Positions 1,686 to 20,374 of a stretch of DNA of 36,510 nucleotides are shown in pieces. Source of the DNA: Candidatus Geothermincola primus (GTDB lineage: Bacteria; Actinomycetota; Geothermincolia; Geothermincolales; Geothermincolaceae); assembly GCA_015711725.1 (NCBI GenBank), contig JACVIX010000016.1, positions 1 through 36,510 of the forward strand. The letters run 5' to 3'. How positions within the stretch are numbered: the stretch's first letter is position 1; every line of letters begins with the position of its first letter. The notes below the pieces were generated by a model that saw nothing but the letters and a program-made list of their open reading frames with translations, ran no database searches and was not told the DNA's origin. The position numbers and the translations under genes were made by a program.

Positions 1686-2669
1686 TTACCAGATACCCGA
1701 TGAACTGTCCAACGAGCTTACATACCATATATTGTCAACCAAATCTAAATAAAAGCGGACCTCCTCAGCCGCCGGGGGGATTATCTCCCCAGTTTCCGCG
1801 TCCAAGCGCTCGCCGTACTCCGCCCTGACGCGTACCACCGCTTTCTCCATCTCGTTCTCCTGGATCCGCTCCGTGCCCAGTATGGAATAAGCCACTTCCA
1901 AACCGCCTTCACGAGCCCGATTTACCGCTTCCACCATACCCTCGTAGCCTAACTCTTCGGGAAGAGACGAGTAGGGGGAAAGCAGGCCATACATGGCTTC
2001 GACGTTTCCCTTATTTAAATAGTCATACCAGTAAGCCACCACCTCTTCCGGCAAAATCATATAATTTATCTTGTTAACGGGAAATTTCTTCTCCCCACCA
2101 TAGATGGCATTAACGGCATCCGCCAATATCTGGGGAAGATTCCATGTCTCCAGATCGAGGCTGGCGCCATTGTACTCTTGACCGTCCTGATAATCTTGTA
2201 GTAATTGTCTGGCCTCCTCTTTTACGCTCTCTATGTCCAGATCCTCGTCCGTCTGATCGTAAAGCACCACGTCCATTCCCGCGCTCAGCCCCACCAAATA
2301 GGATGAAAAAGCGTTTAGAAACCTGAGCATCATATTATGGGTCTTGCGGTAATCACCTGGAACATGGAGGCTTCTCATATATCTGGCGAGGGAATCGACC
2401 TCAGCCACCGCTTCGGATAGAAGATCTTTATAAGCATCCAAATCCTTTAGCTCATATATCCTTCCCGCCCTCTCCACCAGCCTGTGGGAGAACCTCTCCA
2501 GTTCCGGCCACTTCTCCAGCACTCGCTCCTCATAATCCCCCACAGGCGCCCCACAGCCAAAATGCGCCCACGCCACGCCCAACAGAAGGGATGCGAAAAG
2601 CCACAAACCCATCAACTTTAATAACCTTTTCCCGATTTTCCATTGAAAAAACATCTCTGAATTTCCCAT
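1686..2669 (-). CDS. Unrecognised exported protein, possible lipoprotein
   Basis: I do not recognise this 327-aa protein. The N-terminus has a basic stretch (KIGKRLLK) followed by a hydrophobic segment (LWLFASLLLGVAWA), so it is probably exported. An AWA site fits signal peptidase I. A cysteine in HFGCGAP follows, but the lipobox is poor (H and F before G-C), so lipid attachment is doubtful. The middle is rich in charged helical sequence. The last 120 residues (from VVAYWYDYLNKGNVEAMY to FYLDLVDNIWYVSSLD) look like an NTF2/SnoaL-like alpha+beta domain, which is inference from pattern only. An in-frame ATG at 2654 with GGGAA eight bases upstream is a plausible alternative start. It lies upstream of tilS on the same strand. 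Confidence 0.75.
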   Translation of the reverse strand: MGNSEMFFQWKIGKRLLKLMGLWLFASLLLGVAWAHFGCGAPVGDYEERVLEKWPELERFSHRLVERAGRIYELKDLDAYKDLLSEAVAEVDSLARYMRSLHVPGDYRKTHNMMLRFLNAFSSYLVGLSAGMDVVLYDQTDEDLDIESVKEEARQLLQDYQDGQEYNGASLDLETWNLPQILADAVNAIYGGEKKFPVNKINYMILPEEVVAYWYDYLNKGNVEAMYGLLSPYSSLPEELGYEGMVEAVNRAREGGLEVAYSILGTERIQENEMEKAVVRVRAEYGERLDAETGEIIPPAAEEVRFYLDLVDNIWYVSSLDSSSGIW

Positions 2670-3479
2670 CTACCTATAACCCATATGCGGGCGCCCAACC
2701 ATTAAAGCTCATCTGTGTCACGTTAATTTTACCAGAGAAGCGCCCAAGCTAGGGTCTAGAAACGACCTCCGACATGGAATCGTTCAGATTGGGAAGGAAA
2801 TAGACTCCACACATCCGATTCCGCCAGTCCCCCATTAGCGCGATAAAATGCATAAACGCATAGAGGATTCGTGGGGAGCCCACCCAGTTCCAGGGGACAG
2901 AGGTCTATTTTCTAATAACGTTAAACCCTTCGCGGCTCCAAAATCTTAAGAAACCAATTTTACCTCGATGTCTGTGACTCCGCCACCGGTGCCCCACAGT
3001 CGCAAATTTTACCAATATTTAACAAACGGGAATTTTTTCGTTAGATGAAAAATGGAAAATTCATCGACGCCGTCTGCGAAGCACGGATATTCAACAAACA
3101 GGAACTTTTTTGGGGGGCTAAACGCAGGATTCGAGCATTATATCCCAATGGTTCGCGTTTTCGACGATTCGATGGAGAAAAAGCCAAAGGGAACTTTCCC
3201 CCAGAAAACTCCGTCCCTTCCGCTTTGACCAGCTATCCTTTCTTGTTTCCTCGTAAACTGATTCTTGCGGCAAAAGAAGTTCTCTTCTTAACAAGGAAGA
3301 CAAAAGGAAAGCCTGGGAAAGTCGGACTTCTTTCGCCTTTATTATTTTCCTGAGGAAACGAGGATAGAGACAATCTCCCTTTCTAATCTTGATAATTCTT
3401 GGCGATAATAGCTTCCGCCATTTGCCTTAACCCAGCTTTCCCTCCAGCTAGACCCCGTGGCATCGTTCAACCCTTGGTC
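2670..3479. other. Gene-free interval, 810 bp
   Basis: No convincing gene is present on either strand; the open frames are short, lack ribosome sites and resemble no family I know. The stretch is AT-richer than its neighbours. It holds an imperfect direct repeat of 26 bp (3015-3040 and 3087-3112, 22 of 26 bases identical, 72 bp apart). It must also contain the promoter of the exported-protein gene unless that gene is read through from the operon upstream. No clear -35/-10 pair stands out. Confidence 0.5.
3015..3112. repeat. Imperfect 26-bp direct repeat pair
   Basis: The two copies are at 3015-3040 and 3087-3112. They share ATATT, AACAAAC, GGAA and a T tract and differ at 4 of 26 positions. 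The spacing is 72 bp. Flanks do not match, so the unit is short. It could be chance in AT-rich sequence, a relic, or a pair of protein-binding sites. Confidence 0.35.
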
Positions 3480-3912: not shown

Positions 3913-4482
3913 TTAGTGACCACCGATCAATTGCCTCAGAATATCCTCGTATATGACCTCCACCAGTGATTCCCTATTATTTACCCCCACCCGGTAAATT
4001 TTCGACTCCGGACCGGAAAAGACCGCGTCATTTAATAATTCGCATCTATCCTGCATGGTGGCGAGAACTAAAGCGTCGCATATAAATATCTCACGTATCA
4101 GAGATTGGAAAAGAAAAGATAGAAGCTCCATCTTGCCTATCTCATCGATTATCACCAGATCGCTTTGGGTATAGGCACTCTGAAGAGGCCTGAGGGCTAC
4201 CCTCTCCAAAACTTCCACATCAACACCGTACTTGCTTACGTGAGGCATACCCGAAAATCCCACATGGGCGAAGATAGCCCTTTCTCCGGAGAGGTTAATA
4301 ACCTGGAAGCCTTTCCTTTCTCCCCCGTCCCTGATCTCTTCGGTAAGAAATCCCGCCAGGTTCATCCCCCTTCGCGAGAGCTTTTCCACTAGTTTCTTCA
4401 CCAACGTGGTCTTCCCGCTCCCGGGACGTCCTACCAGCAGAAAGCGGCGAACAGAAGCTTGCGCGGATTCCACCTTGCTCAC
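3913..4482 (-). CDS. THEP1-type nucleoside triphosphatase
   Basis: This is a P-loop NTPase of the THEP1/NTPase_1 family, related to the thermophile nucleoside-triphosphatase that hydrolyses NTPs to NDPs in vitro; its cellular role is unclear. Walker A is GRPGSGKTT (residues about 18-26). A strand with GFLTEEIRDGGERKGFQV follows, as is usual in the family. Walker B is LVIIDEIGKMEL (about 109-120). The length of 189 aa fits the family. I prefer the GTG at 4482, which has AGAGGT seven bases upstream; an ATG at 4518 has its purine tract too close. It heads a two-gene operon with the zinc-knuckle protein, behind a 20-bp palindrome. Confidence 0.87.
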   Translation of the reverse strand: MSKVESAQASVRRFLLVGRPGSGKTTLVKKLVEKLSRRGMNLAGFLTEEIRDGGERKGFQVINLSGERAIFAHVGFSGMPHVSKYGVDVEVLERVALRPLQSAYTQSDLVIIDEIGKMELLSFLFQSLIREIFICDALVLATMQDRCELLNDAVFSGPESKIYRVGVNNRESLVEVIYEDILRQLIGGH

Positions 4483-4800
4483 TGAAACAACCTCTAATTT
4501 ATATATACCCAGAAACATCCACCCTATGCCTTATAACTGGCGAGATGGAAATGATGGTTTCCATGGTGCGTTTGTTGAAAAAAGCCATATTTTTAGTAGT
4601 CACTATGTATATGATGACGCGCGGATTCCAGGGATTCGCTCATTCATGCAAACAAATAATTTACTGATCGTCTCTTTCCATAACGTAACCGTGGTGATAT
4701 TGCTATGAACACCTTTTCAGATAGCGGGTCTAAACCCGAGCAGGCAGCCACTCCTTTAGCATGGCTTCAGTAATATACAATTATATTTATTCAATAATAT
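4483..4800. other. Spacer between alr and the NTPase operon
   Basis: This 318-bp stretch has no gene. It holds the palindrome at 4545-4564. It also holds a small CGGGT-ctaa-ACCCG hairpin near 4726-4739, downstream of alr on the minus strand and without a T tract. A TATAAG at about 4530-4535 on the minus strand could be a -10 box for the NTPase operon, but no good -35 lies at the right distance. Confidence 0.45.
4545..4564. promoter_or_regulatory. 20-bp palindrome, candidate operator
   Basis: The perfect inverted repeat ATGGAAA-N6-TTTCCAT lies 60-80 bp upstream of the preferred start of the THEP1-type NTPase gene. The seven-base arms with a six-base spacer fit a dimeric helix-turn-helix regulator site. 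If the TATAAG further downstream is the -10 element, the palindrome covers the -35 region. It could instead be a 5'-UTR hairpin. The regulator is unknown. Confidence 0.4.
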
Positions 4801-5937
4801 TCAGTTTTTATATATCCGGGGAACTCGCGGACCAACGGAACAGACTACCTCGTAATTGATGGTGTCCGCTCTTTCCGCCACCTCCTCCGCACTGATAAAA
4901 TCATCGCCGGATTTTCCTATTACCACCACTTCCTCCCCGACGCTACGCTGGTCCTCCCCCAGGTTCACCATGGTGAGGTCCATGCAGATGGTGCCCACCT
5001 GGGGATATCTTTTACCCCCTATTAAAACCTCCATCCGGTTGGAGAGACGCCTAGTTAAACCGTCGCCGTAACCGAGGGGCACCACCCCTATATAGGAATC
5101 CTTTTCCAGGCAAGCGGTGAAACCGTAGCTGATGCCCTCTCCAGCAGAAAGGCGAAAGACTTGGCAAAGTTCGCTCTTCAACTCCATCGCCGGATATAAG
5201 GAGATAATTTCCTGAAACCTCTCCCCGGGATAAAGACCATAAATACCGATACCCAGCCTCACCATATCCAGCTCCGATTCGGGCAGAAATAGTGCGGCAC
5301 CGGTGGCGGCGGCATGTTTGATTTCGAACTCATGCCCTTCTTTTCTCAGCTTTTCCACGGTTTCCATGAATAGCCCCAGTTGCCTAGCGGTATAGGGGGA
5401 GCGGGGATCGGAAGCCATAGCGAAATGGGTATATATGCCCTCCACCTCCAGGGAGGGTAGATTCCCCAAAAACTTGGCCATCTCACTCGCCTGATGGGGA
5501 AATACACCTACCCGGTGCATGCCGGTATCGATCTTGAGATGTACTTTGCACTTATTTTTCGCCCTTTCGGCCGCGCTCGCCAGAGACTCCGCGAATTCCC
5601 GAGTATAGACCGTGGGGATGAGTTCTAGCTCCAGCACCCGAGAGGCGGCGACAGGAGGTGGTTCGAAGAGGAGGTGGATGGGAGCGTCGATTCCCGCTTT
5701 TCTCAAGGATTCCCCTTCCTCCACCAAGGCAACCCCCAGCCTCTCCGCTCCCGCCTCCAACGCCGCCTGAGCTGTCTCCACGTCCCCGTGTCCATAACCG
5801 TTGGATTTCACCACCGCCATGACCAGCGGCGAGGAGCGCATGGTCCGGCGTATCAGTTGGATGTTTTTTCTTATGTTCTCCAGACTGACTTCAGCCCGTG
5901 TGGGTCGATATCGCGCTGGAGTGGGGTCATACCTCAT
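4801..5937 (-). CDS. alr: Alanine racemase
   Basis: This PLP-dependent enzyme interconverts L- and D-alanine for peptidoglycan. The PLP lysine is K44 in AVVKSNGYGHG. The C-terminal beta-domain has the catalytic tyrosine motif ISYGFT and the PQVGTICMDLTM segment. At 378 aa it is full length. The ATG at 5937 overlaps the stop of the upstream CBS-domain gene by one base (TGATG), which indicates translational coupling; the open frame reaches further upstream but only out of frame with that gene. It is the last gene of the rplM-to-alr operon. This is the second fold-type III racemase in the operon; the other follows rpsI. Confidence 0.95.
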   Translation of the reverse strand: MRYDPTPARYRPTRAEVSLENIRKNIQLIRRTMRSSPLVMAVVKSNGYGHGDVETAQAALEAGAERLGVALVEEGESLRKAGIDAPIHLLFEPPPVAASRVLELELIPTVYTREFAESLASAAERAKNKCKVHLKIDTGMHRVGVFPHQASEMAKFLGNLPSLEVEGIYTHFAMASDPRSPYTARQLGLFMETVEKLRKEGHEFEIKHAAATGAALFLPESELDMVRLGIGIYGLYPGERFQEIISLYPAMELKSELCQVFRLSAGEGISYGFTACLEKDSYIGVVPLGYGDGLTRRLSNRMEVLIGGKRYPQVGTICMDLTMVNLGEDQRSVGEEVVVIGKSGDDFISAEEVAERADTINYEVVCSVGPRVPRIYKN

Positions 5938-6407
5938 CAACGAGATTCTCCCTCGGAAGCCAGATGCCGAATGATGTCGTTTCTGGTGATGATGCCCTCC
6001 AGTTTTTCCTCGTCCATAACCATTACATACTCCCAATCTTTCTCCACCATCTTGGAGGCTATCTCGGTGATATCGCTCTCAGGCCTCACTCGAGGAAACT
6101 TTATCTCCATCAGATCCTCGGCCTTGGAACCCACCGCCCTCTTAAGCTCCTCTTCGTACTTTTTGGTGGAGCCCAACATAATGTAACTATCCAGGAAGTG
6201 AAAGAAGGTGGGAAAATGTACTCGAGCATCCTGGTGCACTAAATCCTCCTCGGTTACCACCCCCACCAGACGCTCATCCTCGTCGAATACCGGCAGGCAG
6301 CGCAGCTTCTTCTCCCACATAATTTTAGCCAGCTCCCTCACCGGAGTGTGGGTTCTCACTTTTATTATCTCGGTGGTCATGATATCCCTGGCGATCCGTG
6401 AAGCCAT
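5937..6407 (-). CDS. CBS-domain pair protein
   Basis: The protein is 156 aa and consists of a CBS pair: the first domain near residues 5-60 (DIMTTEIIKVRTHTPVREL, then RCLPVFDEDERLVGVVTEEDL), the second near 90-150 (ITEIASKMVEKD, then GIITRNDIIRHL). Such pairs usually bind adenine nucleotides and act as sensors. An insert of about 35 residues joins the two domains. The ATG at 6407 is chosen for AAAGGAAG about five bases upstream; the frame stays open to 6755 but those codons overlap nnr in another frame. Its stop overlaps the alr start. What it regulates cannot be told from sequence. Confidence 0.87.
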   Translation of the reverse strand: MASRIARDIMTTEIIKVRTHTPVRELAKIMWEKKLRCLPVFDEDERLVGVVTEEDLVHQDARVHFPTFFHFLDSYIMLGSTKKYEEELKRAVGSKAEDLMEIKFPRVRPESDITEIASKMVEKDWEYVMVMDEEKLEGIITRNDIIRHLASEGESR

Positions 6408-6463
6408 ATTTCTTCCTTTCTCTACTTTGGACATCCTTCTTTTGGATGGATTCTTTGATCCTC

Positions 6464-7996
6464 TCACTTCCCCCCCGCACGGGCCAGGGGTAAGTGAGCG
6501 AGGATATCTCCGGCGATCATACCCTCCATTCCCACAATGTGCGCGGCCAATTCCCCCGCTTTGCCATGGAGATAGACTCCGCAGCAAGCCGCTTGAAAAG
6601 GCTCCAGGCCCTGAGCTAGAAAGGTGGAGATGCAACCGGTGAGCACGTCCCCGCTGCCCGCGGTGGCCATCCCGGGGCAACCTGAAGTGTTGATGCCAAT
6701 TCTTCCCTCTTTTCCAGCCACTATGGTGTTTGCCCCTTTCAACACCACCACGCAATCGAATCGGCTAGACGCTTCCAGAGCCGAGGAGATACGGTCCCTC
6801 TGAATCTCCCTCACCTCCTTTTGGAGCAAGCGTGAAAGCTCACCGGGATGGGGGGTGATGATTAAATCCCCCGGTTTCCCCGCCAGCAGATGGGGTTCAT
6901 CCCGAACGCAATTGAGGCCATCGGCATCCAGCACCATGGGCTTATCCACCTCCAGCAGCAGCTCTCTCACAAGTTTCCTGGTGCCGGGAGCGGTCCCCAA
7001 ACCCGGTCCTAAAGCCAGCACATCGTACCCATCCAATGCTTCCATTATCGCCTGGAAAGCATCGGGCGCCAAATGCCCTTCCGGCTCCTCCGCAAGGGGA
7101 AGGGTCATCACCTCAGTGAGCTTTATCTCCATGATGGGGTTCAGGCTGGCGGGTATTCCCAGAGTGGCCACCCCGGCTCCGCTGCGCAGTGCCGCCCGGG
7201 AGGCCAAAGCGGCCGCCCCAGTCAACCCGGTGGAACCCGCCACCACCAGCACTTTCCCGCAATCCCCTTTATGGGCGTCTAGGGGCCTGGGGGGATAAAG
7301 TGCCTCTATCTCCCTGTCTATGGTCTCAATATTACTGCTCACCACCTCTTCCACCAGGTAGGAGGGGATACCGATATCCCGCACCACTAGCTCCCCCACC
7401 CCTCGCGCCCCGGGAAAAAGATAGAGCCCAGTTTTAGGAAGCGCAAAGGTAACTGTGCGCCTCGCCAGAATAGCTGGTCCCTCCACCCAACCCATCTTCC
7501 CATCCACTCCCGAGGGGATATCCACCGCCAATACCGGCTTTTCGGATGAGTTGATCATCTCGATGGCCTCCCCATAGACGCCCTCCGCCCTGCCCCGGAA
7601 GCCGATCCCAAAGATGGCGTCGATGACCAAGTCGGAGCGGTTAAGGGAATCCTCCACCGCCGATCTCTCGAAGAATCGTGTTTTCAGCCCTATCTCGTTA
7701 GCCCGGTCCAGATTCGACCTGGTGTCGGGGTGGAGATCCTTTACCTCGTCCAAAAGGTAGATATCCACCTCCGCTCCCCACTCATGGAGGTATCTGGCAG
7801 CCACCAGACCATCCCCTCCATTCTTACCCTTGGCGGTGAATATAGAGACCTTCTTGCCGGCGCACAAGGAGAGCATGTCTCGGGCTTGGTCCGCCACAGC
7901 TTTTCCCGCTCGCTCCATCAGATCCAGTGAGCCGACGCCCTCCTCCAAGGTCCTCTGATCCAGGGCTTGCATCTCTTCCGGATAGATGACCCTCAT
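6464..7996 (-). CDS. nnr: Bifunctional NAD(P)H-hydrate epimerase / dehydratase
   Basis: This enzyme repairs damaged nicotinamide cofactors. The N-terminal epimerase domain (about residues 1-215) has KGKNGGDGLVAARYL and DIPSGVDGKMG. The C-terminal ADP-dependent dehydratase domain (about 225-510) has GKVLVVAGSTGLTGAA, LGPGLGT, LDADGLN, TPHPGEL and TAGSGDVLTG. At 510 aa this is the normal fused form. The ATG start overlaps the acpS stop by four bases (ATGA). The enzyme is often found beside acpS and alr in actinobacterial genomes, and this cluster matches that. No missing key motif is apparent. Confidence 0.95.
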   Translation of the reverse strand: MRVIYPEEMQALDQRTLEEGVGSLDLMERAGKAVADQARDMLSLCAGKKVSIFTAKGKNGGDGLVAARYLHEWGAEVDIYLLDEVKDLHPDTRSNLDRANEIGLKTRFFERSAVEDSLNRSDLVIDAIFGIGFRGRAEGVYGEAIEMINSSEKPVLAVDIPSGVDGKMGWVEGPAILARRTVTFALPKTGLYLFPGARGVGELVVRDIGIPSYLVEEVVSSNIETIDREIEALYPPRPLDAHKGDCGKVLVVAGSTGLTGAAALASRAALRSGAGVATLGIPASLNPIMEIKLTEVMTLPLAEEPEGHLAPDAFQAIMEALDGYDVLALGPGLGTAPGTRKLVRELLLEVDKPMVLDADGLNCVRDEPHLLAGKPGDLIITPHPGELSRLLQKEVREIQRDRISSALEASSRFDCVVVLKGANTIVAGKEGRIGINTSGCPGMATAGSGDVLTGCISTFLAQGLEPFQAACCGVYLHGKAGELAAHIVGMEGMIAGDILAHLPLARAGGK

Positions 7997-8373
7997 GAAT
8001 CCTCCCCTTCAAAGCTCACCAACACCACCGCGATAGCGTAACCTTTCTCATGGGACAGGCTTAGGGAGAAGCGTAGAACGTTTGCCTCTCCCAACTCCTC
8101 CTTGGTCTTTCCTTTGATTCTCAAGACGGGCCTCTCCCCCTCCATCTCCACCTCATAATCGAGGAAACGTAAAGCTCCGCTCTTCCCTCCCAATGCCTTG
8201 AAAGCCGCCTCTTTAGCGGCGAAGCGAGCCGCATAATGGGGAGCCGGGCTCCGGTACCTCTCACACCAGGCAATCTCCGCAGGGGTGAAGACTCGGCGCA
8301 GGAATGATGGGGTTTCTTCGATGGCACGCTTGATGCGGTCCACTTCCACGATATCCACGCCCACTCCGTTCAC
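7993..8373 (-). CDS. acpS: Holo-[acyl-carrier-protein] synthase
   Basis: AcpS transfers phosphopantetheine from CoA to acyl carrier protein, so it is needed for fatty acid synthesis. Family motifs are GVDIVEVDRI with the metal-binding D7, and RFAAKEAAFKALG with E55 and K59. The length of 126 aa is typical. The GTG at 8373 is used because the protein then begins just before the conserved GVDIV; a TTG five codons upstream is also open. The stop overlaps the nnr start by four bases. About 305 bp separate it from glmS, so it may have its own promoter. Confidence 0.93.
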   Translation of the reverse strand: MNGVGVDIVEVDRIKRAIEETPSFLRRVFTPAEIAWCERYRSPAPHYAARFAAKEAAFKALGGKSGALRFLDYEVEMEGERPVLRIKGKTKEELGEANVLRFSLSLSHEKGYAIAVVLVSFEGEDS

Positions 8374-8678
8374 TCTTCCTACCCCCAAGCCATCCGCTTA
8401 TTCCATGGCAACAAATTTTTTCACAATAAAAATTCAAACCACCTGTCAGGACATCTACCCAGCTATCTTCCGCGAACCACAAATCATAGAAAATATTCAA
8501 TATGTAAAAATGACTTTTGGTGAGCTCTCGCGCCGATAAAACCACTCATTGACATGAAATACCGGAGGCATCTTCCTCCGCTTCCGAATACGGAACTCCA
8601 TTTCCCTCCAACAAGTAATCGCCGCGCCATTACCGCCCCAACTCACGTATTAGCCCTAAACCCCATGGTATATCTTCC
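8374..8678. other. glmS-acpS spacer
   Basis: This 305-bp stretch has no recognisable gene. It contains a perfect 6-bp hairpin (CGGAGG-N6-CCTCCG, 8563-8580), 100 bp after the glmS stop in transcription order. No T tract follows on the minus strand, so it is a weak terminator at best. AT-rich sequence with TATGAT-like boxes lies between there and acpS. A promoter for the acpS-nnr-CBS-alr half of the cluster is likely but cannot be placed. Confidence 0.45.
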
Positions 8679-10511
8679 TCACTCCACGGTTACCGTCTTG
8701 GCGAGATTGCGCGGCTGATCCACGTTACAACCCCTCCGCTTTGCGATATAGTAGGCCAATAACTGCAAGACCGGGATGGATACCACCGGGTTGAGGATGG
8801 TTTCCACCCGGGGGATAAAGATAACTTGGTTAGAGCAGGAGGTTATTTTATTATCTCCCTCGGTGGCCACGCTGATGATGGGGGCGCTTCTCGCCTTGAT
8901 CTCCTCCAAATTGGAGAAGATCTTGCCGTAAACCTGATCTCTTGGAGCGAGGGCCACCACAGGAAAGCCGGGATGGAGCAGGGCTATTGGTCCATGCTTC
9001 ATCTCCCCCGCCGGGTACCCCTCGGCATGTATATAGGAGATCTCCTTCAGCTTCAGGGCGCCCTCCATGGCTATGGGGTAGTTTATGTTTCTTCCCAGGT
9101 AAAGAAAGTCTTCATGCCGGTAATAGCGCTCGGCGCACTCTTCGATGACAGGATGAGATTGTAGAACCCGTTCAACCGAGGAAATTACACCTTCCAACTG
9201 TCTGTAAGCGCTGGAGACGAAGGAACCATCAACCGCCCCGGTCTTTTCCGCCAGATAGAGACCTAGAAGATATATCGCCGCGATTTGAGTGAAGAAGGTC
9301 TTGGTGGCCGCAACTCCTATCTCCGGGCCCGCGTGGGTGTAAAGAACCGCATGGGCTTCCTGGGTCATCTGGCTCCCCTGGACGTTGACAATTGCAGCGG
9401 TCCTCGCTTTCCTCTCCAGAGCTCCCCTCAAGGCAGCCATGGTGTCGGCGGTCTCCCCCGATTGGCTAATGGCCACCACCAGGGTCTGGGGATTAAGCTT
9501 GGGGTCCCGGTAACGGAACTCCGAGGCGATGTCCACCTCCACCGATATGTCCATCCAGTGCTCAAAGACATAACGAGCCAGCAGCGCGGCATGATATGAT
9601 GTGCCACAGGCAATGAAGATAATTCGTTCCAGTTTTCGGAGATCCCTCATCTCCATGGGATGAAAATCGGGGAGCAATCCTTTCCCGGACTTTAAAGGAT
9701 TGCCTCTCAGTGTGTTCAACCAAGCTTCCGGTTGCTCGAAGATCTCCTTGAGCATGAAATCCTCGAAGCCTTCCTTTTCCACCGTACCGATATCATAAGT
9801 TATCTCCGTGGGGTTTAAGGGCTGGATGGTTCCATTAAGGTCCGTTATAATTATCTCTCCATTCCTTACCCCCACTACATCTCCGTTACCTAGATAGACG
9901 ACCTTGCGGGTATACCTTAAAAAGGCGGGCAGAGCGGATGCCAGGAAAGTCTCGCCCTCGCCTATACCCACCACCAGGGGACTATCCCACCTGGCCCCCA
10001 CCATGAGGGTGGGGTCATCTAGGTGGATGCAGACGATTGCGTAAGAACCCTTCACTCCTCGCAGAGCCTTTCGCACCGCCTCCATAAGGTCCCCGTCCGC
10101 TAGCTGTTCCTCGATCAGATGGACCAGCACCTCGGAATCGGTCTCGGAAGAGAAGGTGTGTCCCCGTCTGAGCAATTCCTCTTTCAGCTCGGCGAAATTC
10201 TCGATAATCCCATTATGCACAAGAGCGAGCTTTCCTGTGCAGTCCATGTGGGGATGAGCATTGCTCTCGGATGGCTTTCCATGTGTGGCCCAGCGGGTAT
10301 GCCCGATGCCCACCGCCCCCTCCAGAGACCGGCCACTCATCATTTCCTCCAGGCGGTCCAGGTTGCCCTCGCTCTTCACTATGTCGATATGGCGGTCATG
10401 GCAGACGGCGACCCCCGCGGAATCGTAACCGCGATACTCCAGTTTGCGCAGCCCTTCCAACAGCACCCTACCAGTGGGCTTATCCCCCATATATCCGATA
10501 ATCCCGCACAT
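8679..10511 (-). CDS. glmS: Glutamine--fructose-6-phosphate aminotransferase (isomerizing)
   Basis: GlmS makes glucosamine-6-phosphate from fructose-6-phosphate and glutamine, the first step to UDP-GlcNAc. The start at 10511 gives MCGIIGY, where the cysteine becomes the N-terminal nucleophile; AAAGGAA lies six bases upstream. The glutaminase domain has RGYDSAG, GIGHTRWATHG and NGIIENF. Two SIS domains follow (ACGTSYHAAL, SQSGETADT, then GRNINYPIAMEGALKLKEISY). The C-terminus LAKTVTVE is intact. Length is 610 aa. The spacer to glmM is about 100 bp; it holds an imperfect hairpin at 10582-10602 but no room for a glmS ribozyme. Confidence 0.97.
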   Translation of the reverse strand: MCGIIGYMGDKPTGRVLLEGLRKLEYRGYDSAGVAVCHDRHIDIVKSEGNLDRLEEMMSGRSLEGAVGIGHTRWATHGKPSESNAHPHMDCTGKLALVHNGIIENFAELKEELLRRGHTFSSETDSEVLVHLIEEQLADGDLMEAVRKALRGVKGSYAIVCIHLDDPTLMVGARWDSPLVVGIGEGETFLASALPAFLRYTRKVVYLGNGDVVGVRNGEIIITDLNGTIQPLNPTEITYDIGTVEKEGFEDFMLKEIFEQPEAWLNTLRGNPLKSGKGLLPDFHPMEMRDLRKLERIIFIACGTSYHAALLARYVFEHWMDISVEVDIASEFRYRDPKLNPQTLVVAISQSGETADTMAALRGALERKARTAAIVNVQGSQMTQEAHAVLYTHAGPEIGVAATKTFFTQIAAIYLLGLYLAEKTGAVDGSFVSSAYRQLEGVISSVERVLQSHPVIEECAERYYRHEDFLYLGRNINYPIAMEGALKLKEISYIHAEGYPAGEMKHGPIALLHPGFPVVALAPRDQVYGKIFSNLEEIKARSAPIISVATEGDNKITSCSNQVIFIPRVETILNPVVSIPVLQLLAYYIAKRRGCNVDQPRNLAKTVTVE

Positions 10512-10613
10512 ATAAAGTTCCTTTCTTGTGCGCATGCCTGCGATCTTAGCCTAGCCGCACGGATCACAAACAAGCCTTTCCGGAGAAGAGTTTACTTCTT
10601 CCCACCGTGAACT

Positions 10614-11975
10614 TTAATTGAATTCCCGACTCACTATAGAGGCAAGATCGCGAGCGATTCTCTCAGCCTCATCCGCGCTCCGAGCCTCCACCATCACCCG
10701 CACCAACGGCTCCGTGCCCGAGGGTCTGATGAGCACCCGTCCCTCCTCACCCAGGGCCTCCTCCGCCTCCTTGATCTTTTTCGCCAACGCCTCCGAGCGG
10801 TCCAGGAGTTCTTTGTTGACCACTCTCACGTTTAGGAGCACTTGGGGAAAATTCTCCACGATGCCGGCTACCTCGGAAATTCTTCCCCCCATATTTTTCC
10901 AAGCCTTGCAAAGCTGCAAGGAGGTGATGAGCCCATCCCCGGAAGGCGAAAGGTCCAGAAAAATGACGTGGCCGGACTGCTCTCCCCCCATATTGAGGTC
11001 TCTTTTAAGCAACTCCTCCAGGACATAACGATCCCCCACCTGAGTCACGTAGACCTTGATGCCTCGCTGGCGCATGGACAAATGAAATCCCTTGTTGGAC
11101 ATCACCGTGGCAACCACGGAGTTCTCCTTTAACAGACCTCTCTCCTTCAAGTCATTGGCGCACAGTGCCATAATCACGTCCCCATTGATTAATCCGCCTT
11201 TCTCATCCACGGCTATGACCCGGTCGGCGTCGCCGTCGAAAGAGAGCCCCAAGTCCGCCCCTTCTCTGACCACCAGCTCCGCGATCCTCTCCGGATGGGT
11301 GGACCCGCAACCCGCGTTAATATTGTATCCGTCGGGCTGATCGAAAAAGGATTTCACCTGGGCGCCGCAAGACTCGAAGATTCTTGGCCCCGCCTGGAAG
11401 ACGGCACCATGGGCGCAGTCCAGAACCAGCTTCAAACCGGAGAGGTCTATCCCCGATCTTTCCAAGAGGAGTTCCACATAGCGGTCCAGGGCTTTGCCGT
11501 TGCTCACAATCCTTCCCACTTTGGGACCATGGGGGCGCTTACCACCATACTTTTGGAAATCCTCGACGGTCCTCTCTATCTCCACCTCCATGGAGTCGGG
11601 AAGCTTGAAGCCACTGGAATGGAATATTTTGATACCATTGTCTTCCGCAGGATTATGGGAGGCGGAGATAACCACCCCCGCGTCCACTTCCGACTCTCGA
11701 GTAAGCAACGCCACCGCGGGAGTGGGAACGATGCCCATCAGTTCCGCCACCCCTCCAGCCGAAGCGATACCGGCGCTTAGGGCGGCTTCCAACATCTCCC
11801 CGGAACAGCGGGTATCCCTGCCGATCAATATCCTGGGATTAGGCGAATCTTGGGTGAGGACCTTAACCACGGCGAAGCCCACCATAAAAGCTAGTTCAGG
11901 GGTTAGATCCTTGTTGGCTAACCCCCTTATCCCATCCGTGCCGAAGAGTCGTCGAACATTCCTTTTGCCGCTCAT
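10614..11975 (-). CDS. glmM: Phosphoglucosamine mutase
   Basis: GlmM converts glucosamine-6-phosphate to glucosamine-1-phosphate, the step after GlmS. The N-terminus RRLFGTDGIRG is diagnostic of GlmM. The phosphoserine loop is ISASHNP (S about 106). The metal loop is SFDGDADR, and the C-terminal phosphate-binding motif is RPSGTEPLVRVM. The length of 453 aa is normal. The start is open between the ATG at 11975 and a GTG at 11993. The region before it carries an 18-bp tandem duplication, so the ribosome site is unclear. It lies between the racemase gene and glmS in the same operon. Confidence 0.96.
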   Translation of the reverse strand: MSGKRNVRRLFGTDGIRGLANKDLTPELAFMVGFAVVKVLTQDSPNPRILIGRDTRCSGEMLEAALSAGIASAGGVAELMGIVPTPAVALLTRESEVDAGVVISASHNPAEDNGIKIFHSSGFKLPDSMEVEIERTVEDFQKYGGKRPHGPKVGRIVSNGKALDRYVELLLERSGIDLSGLKLVLDCAHGAVFQAGPRIFESCGAQVKSFFDQPDGYNINAGCGSTHPERIAELVVREGADLGLSFDGDADRVIAVDEKGGLINGDVIMALCANDLKERGLLKENSVVATVMSNKGFHLSMRQRGIKVYVTQVGDRYVLEELLKRDLNMGGEQSGHVIFLDLSPSGDGLITSLQLCKAWKNMGGRISEVAGIVENFPQVLLNVRVVNKELLDRSEALAKKIKEAEEALGEEGRVLIRPSGTEPLVRVMVEARSADEAERIARDLASIVSREFN

Positions 11976-11983
11976 AATCAGAC

Positions 11984-12017
11984 TGGACCTCACTCTTTAG
12001 ATGGACCTCACTCTTTA
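11984..12017. repeat. Tandem duplication, 18-bp period
   Basis: The 16-base unit TGGACCTCACTCTTTA occurs at 11984-11999 and again at 12002-12017, separated by GA. The right-hand copy contains the stop codon of the racemase gene. The left-hand copy lies in the glmM leader and supplies a second GAGTGAGGT, which is a possible ribosome site or an alternative GTG start. It looks like a recent slippage duplication. Confidence 0.9.
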
Positions 12018-13099
12018 TTATTAGAAAAATATAGCACCTGGGTATCTTCTATTTCAAACTCGTCTCCTCCTCCCCGATAGATCTTGCGCACGTAAGGGCT
12101 GTGCATTGCCCCCAGAAGAGCGAAGTAATCCAGGGAGAAGGATATGCGCTGTCCCCTGCGACCCTCGTCCACCGGGTTGATGGAGCGAAGGGCGCAGAGA
12201 TCGCTGTAATACTCCAGAACTTCCAGACCTTCATTTAAAGGAGTGGCGTTTCCCGCTCCAATATCTAACCTGCCCATCGCCACCAGAATCCTTTTCTCCC
12301 AACGGTTTTCCCTTTCCTTTACCTCTTTTGTTTCAACTATTTCTGCCTCCAAGGTAAAGGTACCTTGAGAACATCCATCTAACCTCTCCCCCCGGGTAGT
12401 CTCCCTGCCCAGCAAGATTCCCTCCCCAACGCGCAGCTCGTTAACCCCTGAGGGAAGGTCGCCGAGGAGCGCCGCTTTGAGCAAAGCGGAATTTCCGGCG
12501 GAGATGATCACGCCCTCTCCTCCGAGCAGGTCTTTCTTCTTCTCCGCCAAGCTTATCAATTGGCGTGGGCTATCCAAGCCAAGGCGCTCCCCCGCGCAAG
12601 AGGTATGGGTGCCCAAGCCCACCAGCTCTATCCCCGACTGCTCGGAGGCGCGCTCAATGGCCCATTCCCCTATTTCCAAAGGAATGCCCTCTCTCTCCCC
12701 TCCTGTTTCCATCATGAGTATGACCCTCTTTTTTAAATCCCTTTTCCTAACCGCCCTGGCCAGCTCCTCCAGATAATCCAGATCACCCACCAAAAAGAGG
12801 TCCACCAATTCCACAAGCTCGGGAATCTCCTCATCCGTGGCGGGACGGAGCATGGTCAGCTCCAGCCCAGGAAACGCTCCGCGCAGTCTTTGCAGACTGG
12901 TTAATCGTGAATCCGCCAGCGTCTTTACCCCTCCGGCCAGAATGCTCCTGGCGATATGGATATCCCCCAGGCATCCTTTGGTAACCCCCCGCACCGATAT
13001 TCCCCGGGATGCTAAAGCGCGAGACAATGTCCTGGAATTGGATTCCAGTAAGTCTAGATCGATGATAAGTCGGGGATAGGGGCCCTGATGGGCAGGCAT
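12008..13099 (-). CDS. Alanine/ornithine-racemase-family PLP enzyme
   Basis: This is a PLP-dependent fold-type III enzyme of the alanine/ornithine racemase family (YhfX/Orr-like), not canonical Alr. The probable PLP lysine is K41 in VRGVTKGCLGD. The early segment RLIIDLDLLESNSRTL and the motif VILMMETGGEREGI, which in relatives reads MVDLGDLREGI, support the family; LVGLGTHTSC follows. Length is 363 aa. The substrate is not certain: alanine, ornithine, lysine or another amino acid are all possible. It begins four bases after rpsI with only a weak purine tract, so it probably depends on readthrough from the ribosomal genes. The C-terminus ends inside an 18-bp tandem duplication. Confidence 0.85.
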   Translation of the reverse strand: MPAHQGPYPRLIIDLDLLESNSRTLSRALASRGISVRGVTKGCLGDIHIARSILAGGVKTLADSRLTSLQRLRGAFPGLELTMLRPATDEEIPELVELVDLFLVGDLDYLEELARAVRKRDLKKRVILMMETGGEREGIPLEIGEWAIERASEQSGIELVGLGTHTSCAGERLGLDSPRQLISLAEKKKDLLGGEGVIISAGNSALLKAALLGDLPSGVNELRVGEGILLGRETTRGERLDGCSQGTFTLEAEIVETKEVKERENRWEKRILVAMGRLDIGAGNATPLNEGLEVLEYYSDLCALRSINPVDEGRRGQRISFSLDYFALLGAMHSPYVRKIYRGGGDEFEIEDTQVLYFSNNKE

Positions 13100-13102
13100 A
13101 AT

Positions 13103-13513
13103 CTATCTCTTGGAAAACTGGGGTCTCTTTCTGGCTTTCTTCAGGCCGTACTTCTTCCGCTCTTTCATGCGGGGATCGCGGCGCAGCAGACCTGCTTTTT
13201 TCAATTCGGATCTCAAGGTCTCATCACAATCCAGAAGGGCTCTGGCGATACCGTGTCGCAGGGCACCCGCCTGACCGCTAGTTCCGCCCCCTTTAATATT
13301 GGCGATGATCTTATACCTTCCCTGGGTACCTGTTACTTCCAGAGGACTCAAGATCACCGTCCTCATGGTTTGGCGGGGGAAAAATTCCTCTATGGGTTTG
13401 TTGTTAACGATTATTTCTCCAGAGCCTGGATACACCCTAACCCTTGCAACCGCTTCTTTTCTTCTCCCCGTTCCGTATCCCAAAGCCTCCGGCAATTTTC
13501 CACCTTCCTTCAC
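13103..13513 (-). CDS. rpsI: 30S ribosomal protein S9
   Basis: S9 is a small-subunit head protein whose C-terminal tail reaches the P-site tRNA. Motifs are [33 protein letters not shown] and the terminal RKRPQFSKR. At 136 aa it has a short N-terminal extension of about 10 residues. The GTG start shares a base with the rplM stop (TAGTG), so the two are translationally coupled. The next gene, a racemase, follows almost at once. Confidence 0.97.
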
Positions 13514-15468: not shown

Positions 15469-16323
15469 TCAACCCATCTCCTCAATCACCTGGCGCACTA
15501 TCCTTTCCAACACGGGCGCTTGAGACTGGGCGGTCTGGAGCACCTCCTCGTGGGAGATGGGATATGGCCTTCTCAAGTCCCACACGTTGGTGATACAACT
15601 AACCGCCATCACTCGCATTCCCAGATAGCGGGCGAAGATGACTTCGGGAACCACGCTCATGGTAACCGCATCCCCACCTATTACCCGGAGGAAACGTAGT
15701 TCCGCCCCGGTCTCATACGAAGGTCCCGAAACACAAACCAGAACGCCCTCCACCATCTTGGCGCCCAGCATCTGCGCTAAACTCAACGCCAGATCGCCCA
15801 TCTCCTCGTCGTAGGCGCTAGAAAGTTCCACGAACCTGTTTTGGGGATCCGCGCGCCCACCGATCAAGGGGTTGTCTCCCAGCAGGTTGATATGATCCCT
15901 GACCAGCATGAGATAGCCCTTCTCGTAGGTAGGGTTGAGGGCTCCCGCAGCGTTGGCCATAACCGCTTTGTCCACCCCCAGCTTTCTCAACACCCTCAGG
16001 GAGAAAGTGACTTGTTCAAGAGAACCGTTTTCATAGTAATGAACTCTCCCTCTCTGGACCATCACTTCCGCGTGCCCAATCTTTCCGTATTGAAAGGTTC
16101 CTCGGTGTCCTTGGACGGAGGGAAAGGGCATATGGGGAACCTTCCGGAACTCTATCTCCTCGCCTTCGCTACCCACATCTAAATATAGAGGGTCTTGTAA
16201 TCCGCTCCCTAGGATTATCGCCCATTCAGCGAGGGGACGGTGATTTTCGACCAACTTCTCTGCAATGAAAGAAGCGGCTTCCTCCGCCCGCTCTTCTAAC
16301 TCTTGTTCATAGTGAAGGACCAT
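15469..16323 (-). CDS. Purine nucleoside phosphorylase, divergent member
   Basis: This is a trimeric-type PNP-family enzyme that splits purine nucleosides with phosphate. Visible features are ILGSGLQDP, GHRGTF, GRVHYYENG, ANAAGALNP, RDHINLLGDNPL, GPSYETGAELR, MSVVPEV and SCITNV followed by SHEEVL. The residues equivalent to the catalytic glutamate, asparagine and histidine are kept (YET, ITN, SHEE). Several surrounding positions differ from the usual TNAAGG, YETPAE and TNMAAG, so the exact substrate is open. The ATG at 16323 has GGGGAGG about 10 bases upstream and gives 284 aa. It lies about 225 bp downstream of the isomerase gene on the same strand. Confidence 0.88.
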   Translation of the reverse strand: MVLHYEQELEERAEEAASFIAEKLVENHRPLAEWAIILGSGLQDPLYLDVGSEGEEIEFRKVPHMPFPSVQGHRGTFQYGKIGHAEVMVQRGRVHYYENGSLEQVTFSLRVLRKLGVDKAVMANAAGALNPTYEKGYLMLVRDHINLLGDNPLIGGRADPQNRFVELSSAYDEEMGDLALSLAQMLGAKMVEGVLVCVSGPSYETGAELRFLRVIGGDAVTMSVVPEVIFARYLGMRVMAVSCITNVWDLRRPYPISHEEVLQTAQSQAPVLERIVRQVIEEMG

Positions 16324-16548
16324 GACACGCCTGCCTCCCCTCGATTTATTGCCCATGCGCGCGGGGAACTCCCAATTGACACTTCATCTCAAGAGACCAG
16401 ACCCCTCCCTGATAGACGCAGCTAATCTTCCCGGAGTTAACGACCAGCCAAAAAGACTACGTAATCCGACTCCTCCATAGCCGTTCCCGCGCAATCCACG
16501 AAAGCAACCTGGCTCTGACCTCGCCTATCCCAAATTAACGCAACACGT

Positions 16549-17667
16549 TCAAACGAGATGCCCGCCATCGCCCTCCTCAGCTTCGTCTTTCCGGTCATCC
16601 TCGGCCATAAGCTCCTTCAACCTGACGATTTTTTCCACCAATGCAGGATCCTTGCCGTTTAATAGGGCTAGGTAGACGCTGGCGAAATCGCCCAGTAGGA
16701 TAGTTCCCAGCAGTTTATCCACTAGGCTTTCTCCCCGCACATGGACCACGTCAATACCCCCTACGGTATCTTTGATCAGCTCCGAAGTCACCTCTACTCT
16801 TTTCACCACGCGGGGATGGCTCTCCTCATCCAGGAGGAAGATTAGCTCCACCAATCTGGAGAAATCGTCCAGTTGTTCCCATCCCACTATCTCGTTATGA
16901 TTCATCTCCGGAAGCGTATGGCAGAACGCGGGGGACTTAGAGTTCTCGTTGAACTGGCATTTCCAGCGATAGGCGGCGGCAGCTAAATATCCATCCATCC
17001 CGTAGACCACGGGGATCTTCCCCCAGACGCGGTGGGCAAGTTTCTTAGCGTAATTTTCACCCAAGGGCGACACTCTTCCCCATTGCCTAACCCGTTTCTC
17101 CAGGGCGGGAATGGATCGCTGGAGCTGCTCGGTGAAACCCCGAATCATTCCGATCTTTTCCAAAATGATCGCTATGGGCAAAAAGAGGAAGGGCAAAGCC
17201 GCCCTGGGCTGCAATCCGCCGGGCACCACCACAGCTAGCCAGTGGTTTTCTTCGGCTTTTCGTAGCAGGGCTCCTCCCGAGGTTATTGCCACCACCTGGC
17301 TTCCCTTGGACGCCACATGGTCTACGGCGGAAAGGGTCTCCTCGGTATTGCCCGAGTAACTCACCGCGAAAACCAATGTTTGAGAGGAATAGCGACTGGA
17401 AGGGATATATCCTCTATGCACTCGAAATGGTAGCCCTAACTCATCCCCAAACATGGCTTCGACAAGGTCTCCGCCGATGGCGGAGCCCCCCATGCCCAGA
17501 ACCGCGATCTCCCTTATCTCTCCCCCATGAGGCAAACCCTCTAACCCATCCACTAGGTCAAGCGCTTCCCTGCACAGCTTGGGGAAACCTTCCACCGCGT
17601 CGATCATGCCGGAGGGATCCATTTTACCGTATACTCCCACATCATCCAGATCAACCGCTACTTCCAT
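16549..17667 (-). CDS. Bifunctional phosphoglucose/phosphomannose isomerase
   Basis: This SIS-fold enzyme interconverts fructose-6-phosphate with glucose-6-phosphate and mannose-6-phosphate. The family pattern is clear: VLGMGGSAIGGDL near residue 60, VSYSGNTEETLSA, PGGLQPRAALPFLFLP and PEMNHNEIVGWEQL, which carries the catalytic Glu and His. Length is 372 aa, somewhat longer at the C-terminus than most, with an acidic tail. The second of two nearby ATGs (17667) is chosen because AAAGG is six bases upstream; it is too close to the first at 17673. It is transcribed away from the phosphohexomutase gene, which uses mannose- or glucose-6-phosphate. Confidence 0.92.
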   Translation of the reverse strand: MEVAVDLDDVGVYGKMDPSGMIDAVEGFPKLCREALDLVDGLEGLPHGGEIREIAVLGMGGSAIGGDLVEAMFGDELGLPFRVHRGYIPSSRYSSQTLVFAVSYSGNTEETLSAVDHVASKGSQVVAITSGGALLRKAEENHWLAVVVPGGLQPRAALPFLFLPIAIILEKIGMIRGFTEQLQRSIPALEKRVRQWGRVSPLGENYAKKLAHRVWGKIPVVYGMDGYLAAAAYRWKCQFNENSKSPAFCHTLPEMNHNEIVGWEQLDDFSRLVELIFLLDEESHPRVVKRVEVTSELIKDTVGGIDVVHVRGESLVDKLLGTILLGDFASVYLALLNGKDPALVEKIVRLKELMAEDDRKDEAEEGDGGHLV

Positions 17668-18261
17668 CTCCATCCTTTCGATTGACTCGATAGGGCCTCG
17701 CTATCTCGCATAATCGCCAAGATGCGCTTGCCGCCCACCAATATGACTCAACAAAATATGATTCAATAGATTATATATTATAAATTATATGCCCTTCCAT
17801 TCATTCCTGTGCCGCAACATTTATCCTCCCCTCCCACTCCATGACATGGAAAAACCAACTGCGCTCGCCCTCGTACTGGCAAACATTTACGCTTCCTTCA
17901 CAGCTCCGCTCTTTTTGAGAAGAAACCATATCTCGCCTCTCTCCCGCCCAACCCAAGGACCTGAGGGCATATCGCCCAAAACTGTTCTATCCCAAGGAAA
18001 AGTTATCGTCTATTCCTCTATCCATCCAGGCTTGAATACGGCGCAACTTCCTTACCGCATGGCCATGGGCTGAGGTTGGCAGCAATATCCTCGCCTAATT
18101 TCCGCCCCCTTTTTTATATCCGCAACGACCAATCCCCACCAACGCCTTCCGCGCATTGCCAAAAATAATTCGGCGTTCCCCCGGCTTTCTTTCTCAACCT
18201 AACTACTCCCTCATCGAATCCCTGTTCAAATATCCGCGTGTTTATTGTTATCATAGATAGC
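17668..18261. other. Divergent intergenic region, about 590 bp
   Basis: No gene is supported on either strand; a 94-codon plus-strand frame at 17789 lacks a ribosome site and any family resemblance. The interval must hold promoters for the isomerase (minus) and the mutase (plus). An AT-rich block at about 17755-17790 contains several TATAAT-like strings on the minus strand and TTGAAT-N17-TATTGG, none decisive. The plus-strand promoter is listed separately. Confidence 0.45.
18225..18254 (+). promoter_or_regulatory. Probable promoter giving leaderless mutase mRNA
   Basis: TTCAAA (18225-18230, 4 of 6 matches) and TATCAT (18249-18254, 5 of 6) are 18 bp apart. Only seven bases separate the -10 from the ATG at 18262, so transcription would begin at or next to the start codon. 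No Shine-Dalgarno site precedes this ATG, which agrees with a leaderless mRNA. Confidence 0.5.
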
Positions 18262-19608
18262 ATGAAAGTAGATCCCAATATCTTCAAGGCTTACGACATA
18301 AGGGGTATCTATCCCCAACAAATCAACGAAGAGATCTCTATACAGATAGGTAGGGCATTCGTGGAATTCTTAGGGGAGAAGAAGATCTTGGTGGGAAGAG
18401 ACATGCGCATCTCCTCCCCCTCTCTCTCCCGCGCCTTTATCCAAGGGGTCAATCTTCAGGGCGCCGACGCGGTGGATATCGGCCTCTGCTCCACCGACAT
18501 GATCTACTTCGCATCCGGGAAGTTGGATCTCCCTGGAGCGATGTTCACCGCCTCCCACAACCCCAAGGAGTATAACGGATTGAAGATCTGCCGGCGAAAA
18601 GCCGCCCCCATCAGCGAGGATACTGGCATCGCCGAGATAAGGGACCTGGTGCTCGCGGGCAAGTTTCAGGACTCACCTCGGAGGGGGATAGTGGAAGAGA
18701 TGAACCTGCTCGAGGATTATGTCCAGCATTCCCTGCGGTTCATTGACGTCAACTCGATAAAACCGCTTAAAGTGGTGGTGGACGCGGGCAATGGAATGGC
18801 TGGGATGCTCGTCCCCGCCATGTTCAAATATCTCCCGGTGAAAACCATCCCCTACTGTTTCGAACTGGACGGGAGCTTCCCTCACCATCAGCCCAGCCCC
18901 ATCGAGCCAGAAAATATCCGTCTGCTGCAAGATTGGGTGCTGGAAAACCAGGCGGACCTGGGTATGGCCTTCGACGGGGACGCGGATCGGGTGTTTTTCG
19001 TGGACAACTTGGGAAACCCCATAAGCGGATCAACCATCACCGCCTTAGTAGCTAAGAGAATTCTTCAGACCCATCCCGGCGAAAAGATCATCTACAACTG
19101 CATCAATAGCTGGATAGTGCCGGAGACCATTCGCGCCAACGGGGGCATCCCCTTAAGAGAAAGGGTGGGTCACTCCTTCATCAAGCAGACCATGGCGGAG
19201 GAGGGAGCCATCTTCGCTGGCGAGCACTCCGGCCACTACTACTTCAGGGACAATTTCCGGGCGGACTCCGGGCTGATCGCCGCCCTAATCGTGCTGGAGA
19301 TTATCAGCCTTGAAGACAAACCCCTATCCGAGATCATCAAACCTTTCCAGAAATACTTCAACAGCGGGGAGATCAACAGCGAGGTCGCGGACATCCCGAG
19401 GAAACTGGAAGAGATAGCGGAACGTTACTCCGAAGGGAAAGTGGATCGCCTCGACGGCATCACCGTGGAATTTCCGGACTGGTGGTTCAACGTGCGACCA
19501 TCTAACACCGAACCCCTACTCCGCCTCAACCTAGAGGCAAAATCTAAGGAGCTTATGGAAGAAAAGACCAGAGAGGTGTTGTCGATAATCCGCGGTGAAA
19601 ATCGATGA
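18262..19608 (+). CDS. Phosphomannomutase / phosphoglucomutase
   Basis: This alpha-D-phosphohexomutase-superfamily enzyme probably acts on mannose-6- or glucose-6-phosphate. It has FKAYDIRG at residues 8-15, the phosphoserine loop TASHNPKEYNG (S98), metal loop AFDGDADR, sugar-binding GEHSGHYYF and phosphate-binding RPSNTEPLLRL. The GEHSGHYYF and FKAYDIRG forms mark the PMM/PGM branch and not GlmM. Length is 448 aa. The GTG eight codons upstream is less likely. It is followed by truA after 31 bp. Together with the adjacent isomerase it could supply mannose-1-phosphate for GDP-mannose or glucose-1-phosphate. Confidence 0.93.
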   Translation: MKVDPNIFKAYDIRGIYPQQINEEISIQIGRAFVEFLGEKKILVGRDMRISSPSLSRAFIQGVNLQGADAVDIGLCSTDMIYFASGKLDLPGAMFTASHNPKEYNGLKICRRKAAPISEDTGIAEIRDLVLAGKFQDSPRRGIVEEMNLLEDYVQHSLRFIDVNSIKPLKVVVDAGNGMAGMLVPAMFKYLPVKTIPYCFELDGSFPHHQPSPIEPENIRLLQDWVLENQADLGMAFDGDADRVFFVDNLGNPISGSTITALVAKRILQTHPGEKIIYNCINSWIVPETIRANGGIPLRERVGHSFIKQTMAEEGAIFAGEHSGHYYFRDNFRADSGLIAALIVLEIISLEDKPLSEIIKPFQKYFNSGEINSEVADIPRKLEEIAERYSEGKVDRLDGITVEFPDWWFNVRPSNTEPLLRLNLEAKSKELMEEKTREVLSIIRGENR

Positions 19609-19639
19609 ACTCCATTAAATCACAAACGAGAAATCTGCC

Positions 19640-20374
19640 ATGCCCAATATAAAGTTGATTATCGAATACGATGGGGGAGGATATTTCGGCTTCCAGAAAC
19701 AGCCCAACCTACCTACCATCCAGGGAGAGTTGGAGAGAGTCTTAAACGATCTGGTTTTTTTGGAATCCCCAATCTACTGCGCTGGGCGCACCGATGCGGG
19801 AGTGCACGCGCGTGGACAGGTGGTAAATTTCAAAGCCTCCACGCGCGTCCCCATAAACAGGCTCCCAGCGGCGCTGAACGCCCGCCTTCCCTCCGACATC
19901 GTGGTTAAACACGTTGAGGTGGTTCCCGAGGATTTTCACGCGAGGAAAAGCGCCTTGAAGCGGGAATATGGTTATTATATCCATAACGCTTCCTATCCCC
20001 CAGCCATAGGGAGACAATACTGCTATCACTACCCCCTCAAGCTAGACACCGAAGCCATCAACCAGAGTATGAGATTGATCATAGGGACTCACGATTTCTC
20101 CTCATTCTGCCGCACGGAAGAGGGTAAATCTTATCTTCGAGAAGTCTATGAGGCGTACTGCCGGGCCCTGGACGACCATCAGGTGGTAATCAGAGTGGTG
20201 GCCAACGCCTTCGCCTACATGATGATGAGGATGCTTTGCGGAAGCCTTCTTGAGGTGGGCAGAGGTAGGTGGTCGGTACCTTATTTCCAGGAGGTTCTTC
20301 AGGCTAAGGACAACTCTCTATCCGCCGCAGCCTTGCCACCCGAGGGGCTGGTCCTGGAAAAGGTCTATTACTGA
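19640..20374 (+). CDS. truA: tRNA pseudouridine(38-40) synthase TruA
   Basis: TruA makes pseudouridine at positions 38-40 in tRNA anticodon arms. The catalytic aspartate is D52 in AGRTDAGVHARGQVV. Other typical parts are IEYDGGGYFGFQ and a C-terminal NAFAYMMMRMLCGSLLEVG segment. Length of 244 aa is normal. The ATG has only a weak GAG-type site upstream. It follows the mutase by 31 bp, probably in one mRNA, and is convergent with rplQ. In many Actinomycetota and Bacillota truA follows rplQ in the same direction, so the orientation here is unusual. Confidence 0.96.
   Translation: MPNIKLIIEYDGGGYFGFQKQPNLPTIQGELERVLNDLVFLESPIYCAGRTDAGVHARGQVVNFKASTRVPINRLPAALNARLPSDIVVKHVEVVPEDFHARKSALKREYGYYIHNASYPPAIGRQYCYHYPLKLDTEAINQSMRLIIGTHDFSSFCRTEEGKSYLREVYEAYCRALDDHQVVIRVVANAFAYMMMRMLCGSLLEVGRGRWSVPYFQEVLQAKDNSLSAAALPPEGLVLEKVYY

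Follow-up and report, generated by a model that had tools for sequence, protein, structure and literature searches.

A putative amino-acid racemase encoded between rpsI and glmM in Candidatus Geothermincola primus, and its rpsI-linked relatives in Actinomycetota

The rplM-rpsI-glmM cluster

The window analysed in this study is a stretch of 36,510 nucleotides from Candidatus Geothermincola primus, whose genome assembly comprises 3.17 Mb in 225 contigs. The minus strand carries, in this order, rplM (L13; 13513..13956), rpsI (S9; 13103..13513), a gene for a PLP fold-type III racemase-like protein (12008..13099; hereafter RAC), glmM (10614..11993), glmS (8679..10535; TIGR01135, 796 bits), acpS (7993..8388), nnr, encoding an NAD(P)H-hydrate epimerase/dehydratase (6464..7996), and alr, encoding the canonical alanine racemase (4801..6036). 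The RAC reading frame is intact (ATG start, 363 codons, 363 aa). It lies directly downstream of rpsI, with 3 nt between the rpsI stop and its own start, and 14 nt separate its end from the start of glmM; from this spacing we infer that RAC is co-transcribed with the rpsI-glmM cluster. The GC3 of RAC (0.604) resembles that of alr (0.602). RAC is a single-copy gene, since the only other match in a search of the source genome was alr.

The initial annotation of this DNA described a PLP enzyme of the alanine/ornithine racemase family directly after rpsI and separate from the alr encoded further along this cluster. The reading frame, Pfam and NCBIfam agree on the former point, and the latter is borne out by the scores against the Alr family TIGR00492 (359.9 bits for alr versus 31.5 bits for RAC, with a cut-off of 168). 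The further statement that alr closes the operon is not certain: alr does lie downstream on the same strand, but it may not be the last gene, because a P-loop NTPase-like ORF (3913-4518, minus strand) comes after it and a CBS-domain ORF (5937-6755, minus strand), whose 5' part overlaps nnr, is placed between nnr and alr. The family match of alr begins at residue 45, and its true start therefore probably lies further in. Elsewhere in the window, the region between rpoA and rplM (15469-20374) encodes a purine-nucleoside phosphorylase, a bifunctional phosphoglucose/phosphomannose isomerase, a second phosphohexomutase (18238-19608, plus strand) and TruA (19640-20374, plus strand). Two ORFs (1686-2669, minus strand, and 3045-3353, plus strand) gave no NCBIfam match.

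Family relationships, distribution and history of the gene

The only Pfam domain of RAC is Ala_racemase_N (82.4 bits, cut-off 24.1). Its best NCBIfam match is racem_Orr (NF040742), at 181.5 bits, below the cut-off of 480. Judged by the NCBI cut-offs, RAC is predicted to be neither Alr nor Orr. An AlphaFold2 model (pLDDT 92.8, pTM 0.91) contains a beta domain after the barrel, with strands at 248-349, and structural matches span residues 1-354. Among solved structures, alanine racemases matched first (4luy_A, VIA Z 29.5, rmsd 3.8, 338 aligned residues) and D-threonine aldolase next (Z 29.2, rmsd 3.1, 330 aligned), with D-serine dehydratase (Z 28.5, rmsd 3.0, 331 aligned) and YhfX of E. coli (4kbx; Z 27.9, rmsd 3.4, 326 aligned, 15% identity) close to these values, so that the fold alone does not point to any one reaction. 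YhfX comes close to RAC in fold, but its sequence resembles that of RAC only weakly (E 0.00039 in an hmmsearch run with the profile of seven rows), and it has another gene context.

In a first survey of 59 relatives, homologues at E < 1e-20 were found, besides the source genome itself, in only seven genomes, which belong to other classes of the phylum; in all seven the gene is situated directly behind rpsI. A scan of genome contigs with the single protein returned no match, whereas an alignment of seven sequences did find relatives. The profile built from these seven sequences was compared with 396 genomes of the phylum, and 80 of them matched at E <= 1e-20. Two of these (G007 and G021) matched through alr only and were dropped, which left 78 genomes. 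The gene directly upstream of the relative is rpsI in 56 of the 78, representing 12 family codes, and in G308 and G244 glmM lies downstream and the contig or region ends where rpsI would be. The neighbourhoods of all 78 were read, and no rpsI was seen at the locus in the remaining 20. Named carriers of rpsI-linked copies include Aquicultor, Hydromicrobium, Oleimmundimicrobium and Calidifonticultor. Relatives in Bacillota, Chloroflexota, Cyanobacteriota, Pseudomonadota and archaea have no rpsI linkage at the loci seen. The linkage is thus real and more general than the initial annotation could have seen, as it recurs across the phylum. RAC itself lies directly 3' of rpsI and 5' of glmM, and for the subfamily the rule is glmM or glmS downstream. 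Several genomes of family code f11 and named kin (L025, L078, L085, L111, L133 and others) have the order rpsI-RAC-glmS, with no glmM in between.

The neighbours of six unlinked loci were scanned. Proteins with DUF1611, which we take to be DgcN, adjoin four of them (L120, L142, L153 and L163); these Orr-like proteins belong to the same family as RAC, but they lack the rpsI linkage and fall outside the rpsI-linked clade. Of the other two, that of Sporomusa lies beside 2,4-diaminopentanoate dehydrogenase and one is placed beside an MTTB-family protein. An excerpt of PMC12363236 describes dgcN as a key gene in one route of D-Glu racemisation, and for the order of the ornithine pathway we follow the description in an excerpt of PMC8803604. 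The neighbours of the unlinked loci (DUF1611, the ornithine pathway, MTTB) indicate that the family is used around several D-amino acids. The kind of enzyme is already known; searches of the open-licence literature of PubMed Central turned up no account of a racemase gene lodged between rpsI and glmM, and the rpsI-linked subfamily appears to be undescribed there.

A tree of 88 rows, which left out ALR_window, L102, L123, L129, L131, L138, L160 and 23 thinned loci, placed the 43 linked rows (two of which, L175 and L187, count as linked by glmM alone) on one side of a branch and the other 45 rows on the opposite side, with support of 100/98.8. This branch was present in 100% of 200 bootstrap trees, and RAC of the window falls within the linked clade. 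A tree of 98 rows also recovered this clade (98/98); there it took in one further row, L123, a truncated unlinked copy without rpsI upstream. The contig of L123 has the same length (12,792) as G253:C28, and an N-terminal racemase piece of G253 is located on a different contig. The best reading of these trees is that the rpsI-linked proteins form a distinct, as yet unnamed racemase subfamily. Within it, the window RAC sits on a long branch (1.59 in the 88-row tree) and groups with the rows of f27 and f32 (97/80); its nearest homologue is at best 37% identical.

The closer relatives of the source genome present another arrangement. The rpsI locus was read in 26 relatives from the same family, order or class; in every one of them rpsI is followed by glmM across a gap of 86-527 nt with no racemase in between, which agrees with the order that the initial annotation had called usual. 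A search of these 26 gaps with the family profile found no racemase remnants (best E 0.67). At L030 and L033, the gaps of the gene-less genomes G001 (384 nt) and G013 (527 nt) contain sense frames without stops, 127 and 175 aa long, respectively, which are not racemase remnants and perhaps represent small genes. Judged from these loci, the window's class is one that has mostly lost the RAC gene, and its absence from relatives in the same order and class implies that it is dispensable there.

In a tree of rplM, rpsI and glmM, eight rows of which were filled in no more than half of the columns, the source genome is sister to G001 and nested inside the gene-less group. The minimum on this tree is two changes, a loss and a regain, while a scenario of losses only needs several events (about four by our own count). 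Both the nested position and the economy of a regain could be explained if RAC had been brought into the source genome by transfer. We consider such an origin doubtful, as the gene occupies the exact ancestral position, has no close donor (the 37% homologue being the best) and has a GC3 like that of its neighbours. These three features speak for retention of the window RAC from an ancestor rather than for its regain.

Active-site residues

RAC of the window retains K41, R136-E137-G138, C168, S200, G202, S204, R223, G225, E226, D279, D300 and Y325. Of these, K41, R136-E-G, S204, R223-x-G-E, D300 and Y325 are shared with Orr, which belongs to the same branch of the fold. With Alr, RAC has in common the PLP barrel followed by a beta domain and counterparts of the lysine, Arg136, Ser204 and Arg219. 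Profile alignment puts positions 165, 223 and 277 of RAC at the places of His166, Arg219 and Tyr265 of Alr. The same alignment puts K41 (codon at 12977..12979, minus strand, counting from 13099, where the ORF begins) at the place of the PLP lysine, which would make it the Schiff-base residue. Position 41 is Lys in 115 of 116 relatives, the remaining one being a gap in a truncated row. The roles of Lys39 and Tyr265 in Alr are those given in an excerpt of PMC8142540. The place of Tyr265 is occupied in the window RAC by Arg277, and no Tyr was found at this position among the residues recorded for 115 of the 116 relatives, which implies that some other residue acts as the second base; His/Tyr301 (115/116) and Cys168 (114/116) are candidates. 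The initial annotation had regarded the catalytic base residues as decisive for its proposal: the lysine is kept, but the second base of Alr has no counterpart.

Linked and unlinked rows differ at several positions: 326 (F/Y/E versus G/S/A), 206 (L/V/A/I versus N/S/T), 207 (mostly W versus L/Y) and 277 (mostly V/L/I/S in linked rows, whereas 55 of the 66 unlinked rows have R or K). These differences suggest that the substrate of the typical linked enzyme is not that of Orr. The window RAC itself has L207 and R277.

Moreover, four residues of the window RAC set it apart from most of the 116 relatives: H165 (114 have Asn), L278 (110 have Gln), L301 (115 have His or Tyr) and G134 (112 have Asp). 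The racemases of f27 have Tyr at position 301. In a leave-one-out comparison, 26 columns show an identity of 95% or more among the relatives; the window RAC keeps 23 of them and breaks three, and the median row breaks none; two other rows, L065 and L189, break five and four near-invariant columns, respectively. The changes N165H, Q278L and H/Y301L at near-invariant places, the long branch, and the high rank of D-threonine aldolase and D-serine dehydratase in the structural comparison might indicate that this particular protein, unlike typical members, which would be racemases, has lost racemase activity and keeps another PLP-dependent (aldolase- or dehydratase-like) or a non-catalytic role. 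This seems unlikely to us, given the 363 intact codons, the 23 conserved columns retained and the still larger number of broken columns in L065 and L189. Residue conservation points to a protein that is divergent but not clearly dead, and RAC is probably still active, possibly with an altered specificity.

Possible function of the rpsI-linked racemases

We suggest that RAC is an amino-acid racemase that depends on PLP and represents, within the alanine racemase fold, the branch resembling ornithine racemase. It belongs to a separate subfamily whose genes have long stood between rpsI and glmM in Actinomycetota of deep-branching lineages. The amino acid would bind the PLP held by K41, lose its alpha proton and regain one on the other face. 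The product would be neither D-Ala nor D-Glu but a further D-amino acid, destined for the cell envelope and tied to growth by the position of the gene behind rpsI. We hold this reading, taken as a whole, with about even confidence. The genes downstream of RAC make envelope precursors (GlmM, GlmS, Alr), and a place behind rpsI and before glmM makes a D-amino acid supplied to the envelope in step with growth the most likely role, although operon position alone does not prove a role in the envelope. In this proposal both racemisation by RAC and its service to the envelope are inferred. A more far-reaching version, in which an ancestral third racemase was wired into the rplM-rpsI-glmM operon to provide a D-amino acid of an undescribed peptidoglycan or envelope chemistry of these uncultured lineages, and in which the window lineage kept the gene that its class lost and changed its active site, is put forward only tentatively.

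Other D-amino-acid genes of the carrier genomes were also considered. RAC does not replace Alr, as alr was present in 60 of 60 genomes tested, including 29 of 29 rpsI-linked ones. Replacement of MurI was rejected on similar grounds (murI passes the cut-off in 27 of 29 linked genomes, all except G105 and G279, and in 28 of 28 gene-less ones), as was that of DapF (dapF in 37 of 37 linked genomes; it was missed only in G001 and G042, neither of which has the RAC gene). A stem peptide of the Lys/Orn type was likewise rejected: among the genomes with a MurE match, 11 of 14 linked ones and 12 of 14 gene-less ones have the DNPR motif, which we take to mark the meso-DAP type. The linked exceptions all have the family code f27, and outside one family the motif is the same in linked and gene-less genomes. 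It should be noted that these indirect tests exclude no more than a role of RAC in place of Alr, MurI or DapF or in the fermentation of ornithine. The proposal of the initial annotation, that the extra enzyme may provide a second D-amino acid, for instance for peptidoglycan, has partial support.

That RAC might be an ornithine racemase, supplying D-ornithine to fermentation or to the wall, is suggested by racem_Orr being its best NCBIfam family and by two Clostridiaceae relatives in the same tree that exceed the racem_Orr cut-off (522.6 and 524.8 bits). RAC, however, remains far below this cut-off at 181.5 bits and belongs to the separate linked clade, which differs at several positions such as 277 (the window RAC itself having R277). 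It is encoded in an rpsI-glmM context and not in an ornithine pathway, and the small subunit of ornithine aminomutase (OraS, PF16552) was found in none of 34 linked genomes, nor was there a match in the source genome; the one carrier of OraS among 37 genomes, G085, has an unlinked homologue. The MurE of the source genome also has DNPR, the motif of the meso-DAP type. An ornithine racemase is accordingly a very unlikely identity for RAC. A redundant or conditional alanine racemase, compatible with the fold and family and with the His at the His166 place and the Leu at 301, both as in the genome's own Alr, is most improbable in view of the 31.5 bits with TIGR00492, the missing Tyr265 counterpart, and the alr present in all genomes tested and in the same cluster.

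The preferred reading, a racemase supplying the envelope, has wider implications. A racemase kept between ribosomal-protein and peptidoglycan-precursor genes in many uncultured families of Actinomycetota points to a routine need for a D-amino acid in addition to D-Ala and D-Glu. We know of no characterisation of the wall chemistry of these lineages, for which the RAC gene offers a directly testable handle. Such rpsI-linked genes should, as a caution, not be annotated as alr or orr.

Two minor observations concern the peptidoglycan genes of the same genomes. The MurE proteins of G058, G092 and G284 (L212, L215 and L216; f27) have DDCY where others have DNPR. In addition, the source genome and most genomes of the same order carry two dapF-like genes, and those of other classes mostly one.
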